Source: Oscillospiraceae bacterium (GTDB taxonomy: Bacteria > Bacillota > Clostridia > Oscillospirales > CAG-272). Taken from it: a stretch of 46,679 bases of DNA. A model generated the notes under the pieces. That model saw only the letters and a program-made list of their open reading frames with translations. It had not been told where the DNA came from and did no database searches. Positions within the stretch are counted from its first letter, which is position 1. Each line of letters begins with the position of its first letter. Below, piece by piece: positions 19,258 to 34,652 of the stretch. The stretch covers positions 1-46,679 of the forward strand of contig SVSN01000005.1 in NCBI GenBank assembly GCA_015064285.1, read 5' to 3'. The position numbers and the translations under genes are program-made.

Positions 19258-19570
19258 CAATAAACCGATGAGGCGGAGATAACGGTGATTATGCTTCCAC
19301 AGAGAGCCTGCGCTGCTGAGAGTCAGGTGAAACACAGATCATCAAATGGACCGCTGAGGGTGCAGGGAACCCATTGTTTCCGCCGGAGATGACATTTTTC
19401 GGGGAGCAGCGGCAGTATACTGCAACGTGTGGGCATACGTCAGTTGCCGGGGATATGATGGTATCCCGCAAGAGCACAGCGTCATGCTGTGAAGCAAGGT
19501 GGCACCGCGGATATGTTTTATTCGTCCTTGGCAGATCGAATCCATCTGTCAGGGGCGTTTTGTTTTTCAA
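19258..19570 (+). ncRNA. T-box riboswitch sensing tRNA-Trp, upstream of trpB
   Basis: The leader between the promoter and trpB has the T-box element AAGGTGGCACCGCGG at 19496-19510 and a rho-independent terminator at 19523-19567 (14-bp stem with G-U pairs, then TTTTGTTTTT). Stem I closes with GGCGG pairing to CCGCT. Just before that arm lies TGG at 19347-19349 followed by A, in the position of the specifier codon, which reads tryptophan. The antiterminator bulge TGGC calls for discriminator base G, as in bacterial tRNA-Trp. Uncharged tRNA-Trp should therefore allow read-through into trpB. Confidence 0.9.
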
Positions 19571-19626
19571 AAGCCGCTGGACGGTCTGCAGATCTATTCC
19601 ATTCTATTTTTCGGAGGTATTCTCTC

Positions 19627-20844
19627 ATGATGTACGGCGGTATTGATTTTGACACTTATTTCAAGCAGTATCCGGATGAAAAAGGCTATTTCGGACGATA
19701 TGGCGGCGTGTATGTATCCGATGAACTGAAAGCAGCGCTGCAGGAGATCACAGAAGCTTATTTCACCATCTGCAAATCTCGGAAATTTATCGCGGAACTG
19801 CGGCGGATCCGGAAGGAATTTCAGGGCAGACCCACGCCCATCTCCCATCTGGAACGGCTGTCCGACAAACTGGGTAATGTGCAGCTTTATGTGAAACGGG
19901 AAGATCTGAACCACACCGGCGCCCATAAACTGAATCACTGCATGGGCGAAGCGCTTCTGGCCAAATATATGGGCAAAAAGAAGATCATTGCCGAAACCGG
20001 TGCGGGACAGCATGGTGTGGCACTGGCTACCGCTGCGGCGTATTTCGGACTGGAATGCGATATTTATATGGGAACGGTGGATATTGCCAAGCAGGCGCCC
20101 AATGTAGCGCGTATGAAGATCCTGGGTGCCAATGTGGTGGAAGTCACCCATGGACTGGCGACCCTGAAGGAAGCGGTGGATGACGCTTTTGCTGCTTATG
20201 CCAGAGAATACAAAGACAGTATCTACTGCATCGGTTCCGTTCTGGGGCCTCACCCCTTTCCCATGATGGTCAGGGATTTCCAGAGTGTAGTAGGGATCGA
20301 AGCCAGAGAACAGTTCTTTGAAATGACCGGTGAACTGCCGGATGCGGTGGTTGCCTGCGTGGGCGGCGGTTCCAATGCCATGGGCCTTTTCTCCGGTTTC
20401 CTGAACGATCCTGTGGAGATTTACGGGATCGAGCCTTTGGGCAGAGGAACCAAAATGGGCGACCATGCTGCCAGTCTGCAGTACGGTACGGAAGGGGTTA
20501 TGCACGGTTTCAACAGCATCATGCTGAAGGATGAAAACGGGGAACCTGCACCGGTATATTCCGTAGCCAGCGGTCTGGACTATCCGTCCTCCGGGCCCGA
20601 ACACGCTTTCCTGCACGATCTGGGCAGGGTAAAATACGATGTAGTGGATGACGAAGAAACCATCGATGCATTCTTCACCCTGTCCCGTCTGGAAGGGATC
20701 ATCCCGGCCATCGAAAGCGCCCATGCTGTGGCATACGGTATGAAGCTGGCGAAAACCATGGGAAAGGGATCTGTGCTGATCAATCTTTCCGGCCGCGGAG
20801 ACAAGGATATGGACTATATTATTCAGAAATACGGTATCCGGTAA
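19627..20844 (+). CDS. trpB: Tryptophan synthase beta subunit, stand-alone
   Basis: PLP enzyme of 405 residues joining indole and L-serine to give tryptophan. It carries HTGAHKLNH with the PLP lysine, [11 protein letters not shown], the phosphate loop GGGSNA, and [12 protein letters not shown] at the C-terminus, and belongs to the main TrpB1 group by motif. The start is the first of two adjacent ATGs, with TCGGAGG about 10 nt upstream; the longer frame would run through the terminator of the T-box. No trpA, other trp gene or tryptophanase lies nearby, so it may salvage indole from the environment. Expression is controlled by the tRNA-Trp T-box leader. Confidence 0.95.
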
Positions 20845-31659: not shown

Positions 31660-31707
31660 AAAATGCTCTGTCGTCTATCTTCGGATAGGCAGCAGAGCAT
31701 TTTTAGT
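31660..31707. terminator. Bidirectional terminator with UUCG tetraloop
   Basis: Arms at 31660-31679 and 31684-31703 pair over 20 bp with one mismatch and two G-U pairs, closed by TTCG. TTTTT follows on the plus strand and TTTTC on the minus strand. It separates the convergent D,D-carboxypeptidase-like and acyl-CoA synthetase fusion genes. Confidence 0.9.
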
Positions 31708-31714
31708 CGGGTAT

Positions 31715-34249
31715 TTATGCGGTCACGATACCGGCAGCTTCCTTGAATTCGGGCAGGTTCTTGGCATCCTCACGCATCTTGTACTTCAGGATCTTACCGG
31801 CGGCGTTCATCGGGAAGGAATCCACGAAGGTCACGTACCGGGGCACCTTGTGCTTGGCCATGTGATCCATGACGTACTTCTTCAGCTCATCTCCTGTGAT
31901 TTCGGAACCTTCCCGACGGATGACGCAGGCCATAATCTCTTCGCCGTACTGCTTGTCGGGCACACCGATAACCTGAACGTCCTTTACTTCCGGATGGGTG
32001 TAGAGGAAGTCTTCGATTTCCTTGGGGTAGATGTTTTCGCCGCCGCGGATGATCATATCCTTGATACGGCCGGTGATCTTGAAGTTGCCGTCGGGCAGCC
32101 GTCTGGCCAGGTCGCCGGTGTGGAGCCAGCCGTCCTTGTCAATGGCGGCAGCAGTGGCTTCGGGCATTTTGTAGTACCCCTTCATGATGTTGTAACCCCG
32201 GGCAACAAATTCGCCGTCCACGTTATCCGGCAGATCTTCGCCGGTTTCGGGATCCACGATCTTGCATTCCACGCCGAAGAAGGCACGTCCGACGGTATTC
32301 ACGCGGGTTTCGATGGTGTCGTCTGTGGAGCTCTGGGTGCATCCGGGAGAAGCTTCGGTCTGGCCGTACACAATGGTGATTTCGGACATATGCATCTTTT
32401 CCACCACTTCTTCCATAACCTTGACCGGACAGGGGGAACCTGCCATGATCCCGGTACGCATATGGGAGAAGTCGGTTTTGGCGAAGTCTTCATGCCCCAG
32501 CATGGCGATGAACATGGTAGGTACACCGTGGAAGCAGGTGATCTTTTCTTTGTTGATGCAGTGAAGCCCCTTTCTGGGAGAGAAAGCGGAGATGGGCGAC
32601 ATGGTCACGCCGTGGGTCATGGAGGCGGTCATAGCCAGTACCATGCCGAAGCAGTGGAACATGGGCACCTGAATCATCATCCGGTCGGCGGTGGACAGAT
32701 CCATACGGTCGCCGATGGACTTGCCGTCGTTGACGATGTTGTAGTGGGTCAGCATAACACCCTTGGGGAAGCCGGTGGTGCCGGAGGTGTACTGCATGTT
32801 GCATACGTCGTGCTTGTTGATCATGGCAGCGCGGCGGTAAACGGCTTCGATGGGGGTCTTTTCTGCCTGTGCCATGGCGTCGTCCCAGGTCCAGCAGCCT
32901 TTCTGCCTGGATTCCACGGTGATAACATTGCGCAGGAAGGGCAGCTTACGGCTGTGGATAGGCTTGACTTCATCATTCTGTTCCAGTTCGGGAACCAGCT
33001 GCTTGATGATGGAAACATAGTCGGAATCCTTGTAGCCGTCCACCATGACCAGCGTATGGGTGTCGGACTGGCGGAGCAGGTACTCGGCTTCGTGGATCTT
33101 GTAGGCGGTGTTTACGGTTACCAGTACGGCGCCGATCTTGACGGAAGCCCAGAAGGTAATGAACCATGCGGGAACATTGGTGGCCCAGATGGCAACATGG
33201 TCACCCTGCTTGACGCCCATGGAAATGAGGGCTCTGGCGAAGGTATCCACGTCATCCCGGAATTCGGGATAGGTTCTGGTGTAATCCAGTTCGGTGTAGC
33301 GGAAGGCATACTGATCCGGGAATTCTTCGCACATGCGGTCCAGCACCTGGGGGAAGGTCATGTCGATGAGCTGGTCCTTTTCCCATACGAAGTAGCCGTC
33401 GCCCCGTTTGTTTTTCTGGAGTCTGGCGGTGCTTCTGTCCATACCCAGATACTGGGACATGAAGTTGGCGTAATGGGGGAATACGATACCGGCGTCGGAA
33501 AGCTCCGGTGCGTACTGCTTGAGCCATTCCAGAGAGATGTAGCCTTCGTAGTTCAGGGAACGGAGCGCCTTCAGATATTCGGCCATGGGCGGCAGATCTC
33601 CTTCGCCAACCAGTTTATAGACAACCTTGCCGTTTTCCATGACGGAGTCCTTGATGTGGCAGTGCTTGATATAGGCACCCAGATTGGTGATGGTCTTTTC
33701 GGGCATTTCTCCGGCGAAACGGTAGGGGTGGTTCCAGTCCCAGAGAGCGCCTACGGAGTCGGAGCCGATCTGTGCCAGAACGTCAGCCAGACGGGCGGTA
33801 TCGGAGTACACGCCGTTGGTTTCCAAAAGAAGCATAACCCCTGCTTCTTCCGCGATGGGGGCCAGGATCTTCATGGGCCCGATCACGTTTTCATCCGGGA
33901 AATCGGTGGTGATCTCGGCGGTCAGGTCACCCAGCACACGGATGTAGGGCGTCCCCAGCTCCTTGGCCAGACGGATATATTCTTTCAGTTCGGCGATGGT
34001 TTCGTCATGTCTGTCAGCAAAGCGGAGTGCACAACCGGAGGAGAGGCAGCAGATTTCCAGCTTCAGCCGCTTGAGGGTCGCTTTGGTTTCCGGCAGGTTT
34101 TCCGGCAGGAAGGGAGAGGCGTTGACAGAGAAAATATCGTTGCCCAGTCCGCGCATTTCGATGCCGTGGAATCCAAAGTCCTTGGCCATGGTATAGATAT
34201 CGGTCCAGGAAAAATCAGGACAGCCAAGGGTGGAGAAAGAGAGTTTCAT
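31715..34249 (-). CDS. Fusion of a sugar isomerase/epimerase-type TIM barrel with an AMP-forming acyl-CoA synthetase
   Basis: The 844-residue product joins two enzymes in one frame. Residues about 1-270 are an AP-endonuclease-2/xylose-isomerase-like barrel with a full metal set: Glu in LLLETNG, Asp and His in ALWDWNHP, HCHIKD, and Glu in YISLEW. Residues about 285-844 are an adenylate-forming ligase with A3 YTSGTTGFPKG near 490, A5 VYGQTEASPG, A7 HTGDLA, A8 GRIKDMIIRGGENIYP and the A10 lysine in AAGKILKYKM near 816. Both halves look active. The ligase half resembles medium-chain or short-chain acyl-CoA synthetases. No stop or frameshift separates them. A T-box leader directly precedes the gene. 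Substrates unknown. Confidence 0.9.
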   Translation of the reverse strand: MKLSFSTLGCPDFSWTDIYTMAKDFGFHGIEMRGLGNDIFSVNASPFLPENLPETKATLKRLKLEICCLSSGCALRFADRHDETIAELKEYIRLAKELGTPYIRVLGDLTAEITTDFPDENVIGPMKILAPIAEEAGVMLLLETNGVYSDTARLADVLAQIGSDSVGALWDWNHPYRFAGEMPEKTITNLGAYIKHCHIKDSVMENGKVVYKLVGEGDLPPMAEYLKALRSLNYEGYISLEWLKQYAPELSDAGIVFPHYANFMSQYLGMDRSTARLQKNKRGDGYFVWEKDQLIDMTFPQVLDRMCEEFPDQYAFRYTELDYTRTYPEFRDDVDTFARALISMGVKQGDHVAIWATNVPAWFITFWASVKIGAVLVTVNTAYKIHEAEYLLRQSDTHTLVMVDGYKDSDYVSIIKQLVPELEQNDEVKPIHSRKLPFLRNVITVESRQKGCWTWDDAMAQAEKTPIEAVYRRAAMINKHDVCNMQYTSGTTGFPKGVMLTHYNIVNDGKSIGDRMDLSTADRMMIQVPMFHCFGMVLAMTASMTHGVTMSPISAFSPRKGLHCINKEKITCFHGVPTMFIAMLGHEDFAKTDFSHMRTGIMAGSPCPVKVMEEVVEKMHMSEITIVYGQTEASPGCTQSSTDDTIETRVNTVGRAFFGVECKIVDPETGEDLPDNVDGEFVARGYNIMKGYYKMPEATAAAIDKDGWLHTGDLARRLPDGNFKITGRIKDMIIRGGENIYPKEIEDFLYTHPEVKDVQVIGVPDKQYGEEIMACVIRREGSEITGDELKKYVMDHMAKHKVPRYVTFVDSFPMNAAGKILKYKMREDAKNLPEFKEAAGIVTA

Positions 34250-34332
34250 AACGGTTTACCTCTTTGGAAAAATAGAATGATAAATGTTTGTGTTGCCTGG
34301 ATCATTCCGCAGAGAAGTGGCTTATATGGACT

Positions 34333-34617
34333 AAAAAAAACCTCATCCCCATCGGAAAACCGACAGAGACGAGGGCTGAATGCTCCCGTGGTACCACTCT
34401 GATTGGTGAAAATACCCACTTTACAGGCACAACACGATGCCTTTCCCGTATAACGGCAGGAACCCGTCAGACCCTACTCTGCGGCGCGTTTCGGATCTGC
34501 TGCTGAGGGACCAGAGGAAGAAGACCATTGCCATGCTGCCTTGCACCACCCGGCAGTTCTCTGGGTGACAAACCCGGTCTGTTCCGTTTCCCTGTTATCG
34601 CATTTGTCATTTTGGAT
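34333..34617 (-). ncRNA. T-box riboswitch upstream of the TIM-barrel/acyl-CoA synthetase fusion
   Basis: On the minus strand the leader contains the T-box AGAGTGGTACCACGG (34400-34386) and a terminator with a 15-bp stem (34374-34360 with 34355-34341) followed by eight T. The upstream part has the Stem I apical pattern AGAGAACTGCC and GGTGGTGCAAGGCAG. The bulge TGGT requires a tRNA with discriminator A. Stem I pairings AGACC/GGTCT and AGGGA/TCCCT put the specifier codon among 34511-34520: CTG or CTC (Leu) fits best, TTC (Phe) next. The assignment is not firm. Only the fusion gene lies downstream. Confidence 0.85.
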
Positions 34618-34623
34618 GCAAAG

Positions 34624-34652
34624 AGTATACCACACTTTTTTTGACTTGTCAA
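34624..34652 (-). promoter_or_regulatory. Promoter of the fusion gene T-box leader
   Basis: On the minus strand a perfect TTGACA (34652-34647), 17 nt, TATACT (34629-34624) preceded by TGG. The same strength class as the trpB leader promoter. Confidence 0.85.

Follow-up and report, generated by a model that had tools for sequence, protein, structure and literature searches.

T-box leaders of the leucine class (Rfam RF00230), such as the one preceding the leu operon of genome G007 (locus L148), carry a Stem I with AGAGA and GGUG motifs, a CUC or CUG specifier, a UGGU bulge, and terminator and antiterminator structures, and they pair with a tRNA-Leu whose discriminator is A; their targets are leuS, leuA or a transporter. 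MbcS (NF047394) is an AMP-forming ligase that acts on short branched acids. Branched-chain volatile acids are growth factors for ruminococci, and rumen bacteria make leucine from isovalerate by reductive carboxylation, a conversion described in the 1960s (Allison 1962, 1966, as cited in PMC7356843); the excerpted text of PMC7356843 names neither a ligase gene nor an RNA switch for this route.

The DNA analyzed here (the window) is a stretch of 46,679 nucleotides from an Oscillospiraceae bacterium (contig SVSN01000005.1, assembly GCA_015064285.1), whose genome is a metagenome-assembled genome (MAG) that is 73% complete. On its minus strand a T-box leader of the leucine class stands upstream of a gene that fuses a TIM barrel to an AMP-forming acyl-CoA ligase, rather than upstream of any of the usual targets. 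It is considered probable that leucine starvation induces this ligase, which would activate isovalerate for leucine synthesis by reductive carboxylation; the predicted inputs and product are those of the rumen route, while the ligase, its regulator and a set of amino-acid-specific sister ligases are proposed here from genomes. The RNA itself is an ordinary T-box; it is the target class and the arrangement of one T-box per ligase that look new, as neither a T-box on an acyl-CoA ligase nor a reductive-carboxylation module with one T-box per ligase was found among the matches listed from the open-licence PMC literature, a scope outside which subscription-journal T-box surveys fall. The reach of T-boxes would thus extend past synthetases, classical biosynthesis and transport, and the specifier codon would label the amino acid that each uncharacterised ligase serves, turning anonymous acyl-CoA synthetases into named candidates. 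The fusion is also a candidate genomic marker for gut bacteria that might live on branched-chain acids instead of leuABCD leucine synthesis.

The leader and the amino acid it senses

An earlier note, made from the letters of this DNA, described a complete T-box leader with promoter, Stem I, T-box sequence and terminator, and proposed a covariance search with the Rfam T-box model; both the description and the search hold up. When 691 nt are compared with 4227 Rfam families, positions 34607-34362 (minus strand) match RF00230 over the whole model (positions 1-219) with 72.1 bits and an E value of 1.2e-15, or 1.3e-15 when the whole genome of this assembly is searched with RF00230. The leader does not reach the Rfam gathering score of 93 bits, and a default scan of the window gave no T-box. 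This threshold is considered strict for the group because the T-boxes before ileS and two trpB-like genes in the same genome also fall below it (71.1, 75.8 and 80.4 bits); only 2 of the 12 RF00230 matches of the genome exceed the gathering score, while orthologous leaders from genomes G045 and G097 do so with 124.5 and 131.0 bits.

A sigma-70-like promoter (34652-34624, minus strand) is recognized from the sequence and by string search, with TTGACA at 34652-34647, a 17-nt spacer and TATACT at 34629-34624; a -35 element of the type TTGAC(A/T) is seen by eye in 19 of the 24 rows of an alignment of orthologous leaders (23 fusion loci and the second copy from the same assembly), the remaining rows beginning too late to show it. 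Stem I (34498..34607, minus strand), defined by the alignment, by covariation and by a Stem I-only covariance model, R1, features the apical AGAGA (34562-34558) and the GGUG motif. Its pairing is well maintained over the 24 leaders, with 96.9% of cells paired and 11 of 12 pairs changed on both sides, and none of 500 shuffles attains any of five measures of covariation; the antiterminator helix likewise shows compensatory changes on both sides. The T-box sequence AGAGTGGTACCACGG / AGAGUGGUACCACGG with its UGGU bulge occupies 34386..34400 (minus strand; covariance match and string search), and an intrinsic terminator spans 34333..34374 (minus strand) with a 15-bp stem (arms 34374-34360 and 34355-34341), a UUUU loop and eight T. 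Judged from their sequences, terminator and antiterminator would be mutually exclusive, and switching between them is predicted. By folding energy the window leader does not stand out from its shuffles (z -0.70; 27 of 100 are equally stable). An AGUA/GAA loop usually faces the specifier of T-boxes and is also present in the Rfam RF00230 consensus; unlike in usual T-boxes, this loop is poorly kept, by eye, in the leaders studied here.

The specifier is taken as the triplet lying 5' of the lower Stem I helix at a distance of one base, a placement that agrees with the rule of TBDB as understood from its excerpted description (PMC7778990). From the alignment column and a string search, the window leader reads CUG (34512..34514, minus strand), followed by G (34511) and the helix strand UCCC (34510-34507). 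Within the 24-leader alignment CU is invariant, and the third base is C in 21 rows and G in three, the window among them. Automatic reading of all alignments was extended to 112 distinct leaders upstream of the fusion gene, of its operon or of the ligase in unfused form, with near-duplicates merged; distinct sequences rather than loci are counted, since the named and other genome sets overlap. All 112 give a leucine codon, 101 as CUC and 11 as CUG (97 CUC and 11 CUG before the fusion, four CUC before the unfused ligase); in the excerpted TBDB account CUC makes up 74% of leucine T-boxes (PMC7778990). Thirteen rows before other genes had been set aside beforehand by position, and these read Ile (five), Val (three), Trp (two), Tyr, Leu (the leu operon of G007) and TCC for Ser (one each), the last coming from leader L126 before a PaaK gene and being doubtful, perhaps misread. 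Since these other T-boxes give Ile, Val, Trp and Tyr, the model used for reading the specifier is not biased toward leucine. Control leaders in the genome of the window also match their genes (GUA before valS, AUC before ileS, UGG before the trpB-like genes), and the pheS leader reads UUC by eye, with a histidine-phosphatase-like gene between leader and pheS.

The bulge is UGGUACC in 100 of the 112 leaders and another form of UGGU in L190, L211 and L212; it deviates to GGGU in L015 and CGGU in L045, and is absent in seven. Eleven of the 46 tRNA matches of the genome were examined: five are tRNA-Leu genes (CAG twice, GAG, UAG and UAA), each with A, by eye, after a 7-bp acceptor stem (in four of the five ARAGORN extends the stem by a T-A pair), and tRNA-Leu(CAA) was not seen among these eleven. 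The discriminator A complements the UGGU bulge of the window leader. By these readings, the sensed tRNA is tRNA-Leu; the earlier note had derived a discriminator A and tRNA-Leu or tRNA-Phe from the bulge, and discriminator and leucine are borne out, whereas phenylalanine is ruled out by a specifier column that reads Leu in every leader. Tryptophan, obtained by shifting the window specifier by one base to UGG, was rejected, the next base then being U; the register is fixed by the orthologues, in which CUC or CUG is followed by a purine in 96 of 112 leaders and by C in 16.

The fusion protein, its operon partners and sister ligases

The gene under this leader (34249-31715, minus strand) starts with ATG after an AGAGG stretch resembling a ribosome site and encodes 844 aa, which confirms a single target that is not a synthetase. 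Three domains exceed their Pfam cut-offs: a xylose-isomerase-like TIM barrel (PF01261, aa 22-244; 33518..34186), an AMP-binding domain with a TSGTTG motif (PF00501, aa 304-693; 32171..33340) and an AMP-binding C-terminal domain with lysine K819 (PF13193, aa 744-819; 31793..32020), all on the minus strand; the latter two agree with the AMP-forming acyl-CoA synthetase that had been expected from the sequence. Of 112 NCBIfam families matched by the fusion, the top 25 do not include MbcS; although both are AMP-forming ligases, the fusion is closest to PRK12583 and carries the TIM barrel in place of the HTH/cupin part found in the MbcS-like ligases of the isoleucine and valine slots described below. 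Solved PF01261 barrels share the fold family and four conserved acidic or His positions with the fusion, but their sequence similarity is weak (MJ1311 is best with E 1.2e-4, followed by AsbF with 2.3e-3), and here the barrel is fused to a ligase. The four residues, E143, D171, H198 and E241, which we take to be metal ligands, are conserved in 15 of 15 aligned barrels. In five of the 24 genomes listed with an unfused ligase from a sample of the order (G066, G071, G082, G085 and G150), TIM barrel and ligase are adjacent separate genes; because of this adjacency and the kept residues, the barrel probably works together with the ligase.

Nine distant fusion loci (54-64% identity) were fetched, and all nine show the order Leu T-box, LeuA-like protein, fusion. 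The LeuA-like partners contain HMGL and LeuA_dimer domains (two proteins scanned) and score below half of the LeuA cut-off (TIGR00973; 262.7 and 246.7 bits against 598.7). RDGEQ and GERAGN, the catalytic motifs of LeuA, are lost in all five aligned partners, while no comparable losses are seen in the alignment of the LeuA_dimer part; from sequence, these partners look regulatory.

Sister ligases under T-boxes of other specificity are found in relatives. An isoleucine T-box (AUC) precedes an MbcS-like ligase in G034, G049 and G056, and in G034 and G056 a valine T-box (GUA) precedes another; in the latter two genomes the leucine T-box operon adjoins the isoleucine and valine T-box/ligase branches and IlvE. 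The ligases in the Ile and Val slots are of the HTH/cupin/AMP-ligase type (domains scanned in G049 only), and their best NCBIfam model is MbcS, with 424-459 bits under a cut-off of 850. IlvE exceeds its cut-off in all three genomes, as does VorB nearby on the same contig, accompanied by a beta subunit in G049 and G056 and by a gamma subunit in G056. These relatives thus combine a ligase, a 2-oxoacid:ferredoxin oxidoreductase and a transaminase, the genes one would look for if branched-chain amino acids were built from branched-chain acids. In G026 the gene following the fusion is a pyruvate:ferredoxin oxidoreductase (PFOR; 1698.6 bits, cut-off 911.35).

The assembly of the window holds further T-boxes on ligases: an isoleucine T-box upstream of a protein that has cupin and AMP-binding domains and matches HTH below threshold, a tyrosine T-box before another AMP-forming ligase (best model PRK06187, below cut-off), and, at locus L003 (G000:C132), a T-box whose specifier is UGG and whose bulge is UGGU, followed by a PaaK-like ligase (373 bits, under the cut-off of 646). 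This PaaK-like ligase is possibly an aromatic branch of the same scheme. About 2 kb upstream of it lies a 614-codon frame with a weak match to 2-oxoacid oxidoreductases.

Conservation of the leader and the pattern of leuB loss

Full-length orthologues of the fusion occur throughout the relatives, the nearest named locus being in a Clostridia MAG from goat caecum (96% protein identity); Formimonas warabiya (L072), which is in culture, carries both T-box and fusion. Among the first 28 fusion loci, 24 have a T-box core motif within 700 nt upstream, of which L037 was later judged false; the four others are L025, with only 239 nt of upstream DNA, and L040-L042, in which the T-box stands farther up, before a LeuA-like gene. 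T-boxes at L128, L188, L190, L193, L208, L211 and L131 escaped a motif pattern and were accepted by eye or by model. Over 80 named fusion loci, R1 matches 45 (40 with a T-box core, five without) and finds no leucine Stem I in the other 35. In the sample of 147 genomes spread over the order, a T-box match lies upstream of the fusion in 48 of 62 genomes with readable upstream DNA, belonging to 18 families, so that the same leader is indeed found before homologous fusions; two of these 48 (G075 and G149) have no UGGN bulge, and G138 and G175 are omitted from the count, the contig ending too near the gene or the gene being cut.

Seven fusion leaders without the UGGN antiterminator bulge (L083:5654-6000, L084:5741-6000, L100:5682-6000, L105:5678-6000, L112:4441-4746, L164:60-400 and L175:60-425, the last two on the minus strand) keep the leucine Stem I and a stem III with CGGGTTTCTC(A/G)CCGT; by eye they also show a terminator-like hairpin and a small hairpin whose loop is often UGNUGG. 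From their sequences, these leaders may be T-boxes in decay, or they may sense the tRNA without reading its aminoacylation state. The reverse is seen at L077, one of the 35 named loci in which R1 finds no leucine Stem I, where the antiterminator (GGGTGGTAACACGG) is kept some 100-240 nt before the fusion and Stem I is seemingly lost. In G007 the leader (L015 / L207), 121 nt before the fusion, has GAGGGGTACC in place of GAGTGGTACC. G007 is the one genome of the same genus with leuB and carries the fusion as well; its leu operon on L148 contains the T-box, a leuA-like gene, leuB and neighbours that we take to be leuC, leuD and ilvB, and the altered fusion leader perhaps reflects relaxed selection.

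Presence of the fusion was compared with that of leuB in two sets: 59 relatives (42 with the fusion, 17 without; 25 of the 59 from one genus), where incomplete fusions at contig ends (such as G008, G009, G010, G014, G018, G019, G023 and G025) are counted as present, and the order sample (64 with, 83 without), where a match of at least 940 bits is needed, the fragmented G146 being added and G142, with a fragment only, being counted as without. The p-values that follow ignore shared ancestry and hence overstate the independence of related genomes. leuB exceeds its cut-off in 17 of the 59 relatives, namely 3 of 42 fusion genomes and 14 of 17 others (p 3e-8), and in 23 of 64 fusion genomes of the order sample compared with 63 of 83 others (p 1.6e-6). 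A strict rule by which the fusion replaces leuB is weakened by the 23 order-sample genomes that have both; by these gene counts, the fusion is favoured where the classical leucine pathway is missing, yet it is not an obligate substitute. The T-box follows the same pattern, being present upstream of order-sample fusions with readable DNA in 36 of 40 genomes lacking leuB compared with 12 of 22 bearing it (p 0.003, or 0.002 when the two UGGN-less leaders are counted as lost). VorB exceeds its cut-off in 33 of 42 fusion genomes of the relatives set and in 6 of 17 others (p 0.002). At L146 (9411-12580; G000:C3), and also at L147 and L154, a full-length LeuA stands in tandem with a second HMGL synthase, presumably CimA-like, with no leuB over cut-off.

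Proposed route and competing explanations

The leader is proposed to act as a tRNA-Leu-specific T-box that works by terminating transcription. Under leucine shortage, uncharged tRNA-Leu would pair with the CUG or CUC specifier and its free ACCA end with the UGGU bulge, so that the antiterminator would form and the fusion gene would be transcribed. The ligase half would form the CoA ester of a branched-chain acid related to leucine, with isovalerate as the most likely substrate; addition of CO2 by a 2-oxoacid:ferredoxin oxidoreductase (of the VorB type, or of the PFOR type in some genomes) would yield 2-ketoisocaproate, which a branched-chain transaminase would convert to leucine, and the TIM barrel may have a helper or intermediate-handling role. 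The fusion would then serve leucine within a group of ligases that are each controlled by a T-box for one amino acid. Synthesis is favoured over breakdown because T-box induction comes under amino-acid starvation. The earlier note had suggested a keto- or branched-chain acid derived from the sensed amino acid and a target outside the usual T-box classes; the branched-chain link stands, but leucine is more likely made from the acid than the acid from leucine, and the target, while no synthetase, probably belongs to amino-acid biosynthesis after all, by an unusual route.

A wider scheme is offered tentatively, as possible rather than probable: these anaerobes would derive a number of amino acids from the corresponding carboxylic acids, each amino acid having a T-box and an AMP-forming ligase to itself (the TIM fusion for Leu, HTH/cupin ligases for Ile and Val, other ligases for Tyr and the aromatic branch). 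The Leu ligase would be a candidate for the isovalerate activator of rumen-type bacteria; in some lineages leucine would be sensed a second time, allosterically, through the LeuA_dimer domain of a catalytically inactive LeuA, and the seven UGGN-less leaders would be a derived tRNA-sensing RNA without aminoacylation read-out.

Several observations weigh against leucine synthesis from isovalerate as the role of the locus. The best NCBIfam model for the fusion is PRK12583, a fatty acid CoA ligase family, and is matched with 686 bits against a cut-off of 832. Neither leucine Stem I nor T-box core is present in 34 of the 80 named fusion loci, and no T-box lies within 2.6 kb of four order-sample fusions of 56-63% identity (G122, G123, G156 and G174). 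The coexistence of leuB and fusion noted above means that the classical route is not simply replaced, and the shared ancestry of the genomes behind the p-values counts on the same side. In the genome of the window a full-length LeuA exceeds its cut-off without a leuB over cut-off, and no VorB over cut-off was found, in a genome of 73% completeness; the VorB of G056 is spread over two reading frames.

MbcS-type enzymes are linked to membrane lipids, and the ligase could likewise supply isovaleryl-CoA mainly as a primer for iso-branched membrane fatty acids when leucine is scarce, leucine synthesis not being its purpose. The best match of the Ile- and Val-branch ligases to the MbcS model fits such a role, and a leucine signal would be sensible for it, leucine being the usual primer source; however, IlvE and 2-oxoacid:ferredoxin oxidoreductase genes accompany the ligase branches in G034, G049 and G056, and presence of the fusion follows absence of leuB, which makes this explanation unlikely. 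It is also judged rather unlikely that fusion, LeuA-like protein and TIM barrel serve another leucine-related pathway, such as a novel way of building the leucine skeleton de novo, with the ligase acting on an intermediate. The LeuA-like gene preceding the fusion in the nine distant operons, the candidate metal ligands kept throughout the aligned barrels, and a barrel that seems functionally tied to the ligase where the two are separate neighbours would all suit such a pathway; the LeuA-like proteins, however, look regulatory from their lost catalytic motifs and kept LeuA_dimer domain, and no neighbour family occurs in more than six of the 80 named loci, though the picking of open reading frames may hide genes behind antisense frames.

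The reverse direction, in which leucine is oxidized through the 2-oxoacid:ferredoxin oxidoreductase and the synthetase runs backward for energy, is considered very unlikely. In the excerpted text of PMC13290082, gut acetogens are described as oxidizing branched-chain and aromatic amino acids with such oxidoreductases; the loci concerned co-occur there with homologues of phosphate butyryltransferase and butyrate kinase, and the excerpt mentions no AMP-forming ligases. A T-box that turns genes on under amino-acid starvation would moreover have the wrong sign for catabolism. Practically no credence is given to the idea that the leader was left behind by a lost synthetase gene or stands there by chance, despite the window copy lying under the gathering threshold and the lack of a T-box core in 40 of the 80 named fusion loci: across 18 families a T-box occurs on this gene or its operon, its pairs show compensatory changes and the amino acid read never varies, and a synthetase relic is rejected by this conservation.

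A second copy of the fusion, with 96% protein identity, lies on another contig of the same assembly (G000:C102, L215-L219). Some four fifths of the window (1349-46679) align in the same order with this contig; nucleotide identity is 79-89% in six main blocks and 75% in a further, short one. The assembly probably holds two related species, judging from these alignments, so that apparent gene duplicates are suspect; paralogy of the fusion within this genome is judged a likely artefact given the colinearity, an old large duplication being the remaining possibility. Downstream of the fusion gene, an inverted repeat ATGCTCTG...CAGAGCAT with T-runs (31660..31705, minus strand) is seen by eye and is a probable terminator. 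The window also contains a second T-box (19259-19532, plus strand; 75.8 bits) with specifier UGG and bulge UGGC, which lies upstream of trpB (open reading frame 19489-20844) and belongs to the ordinary Trp class.

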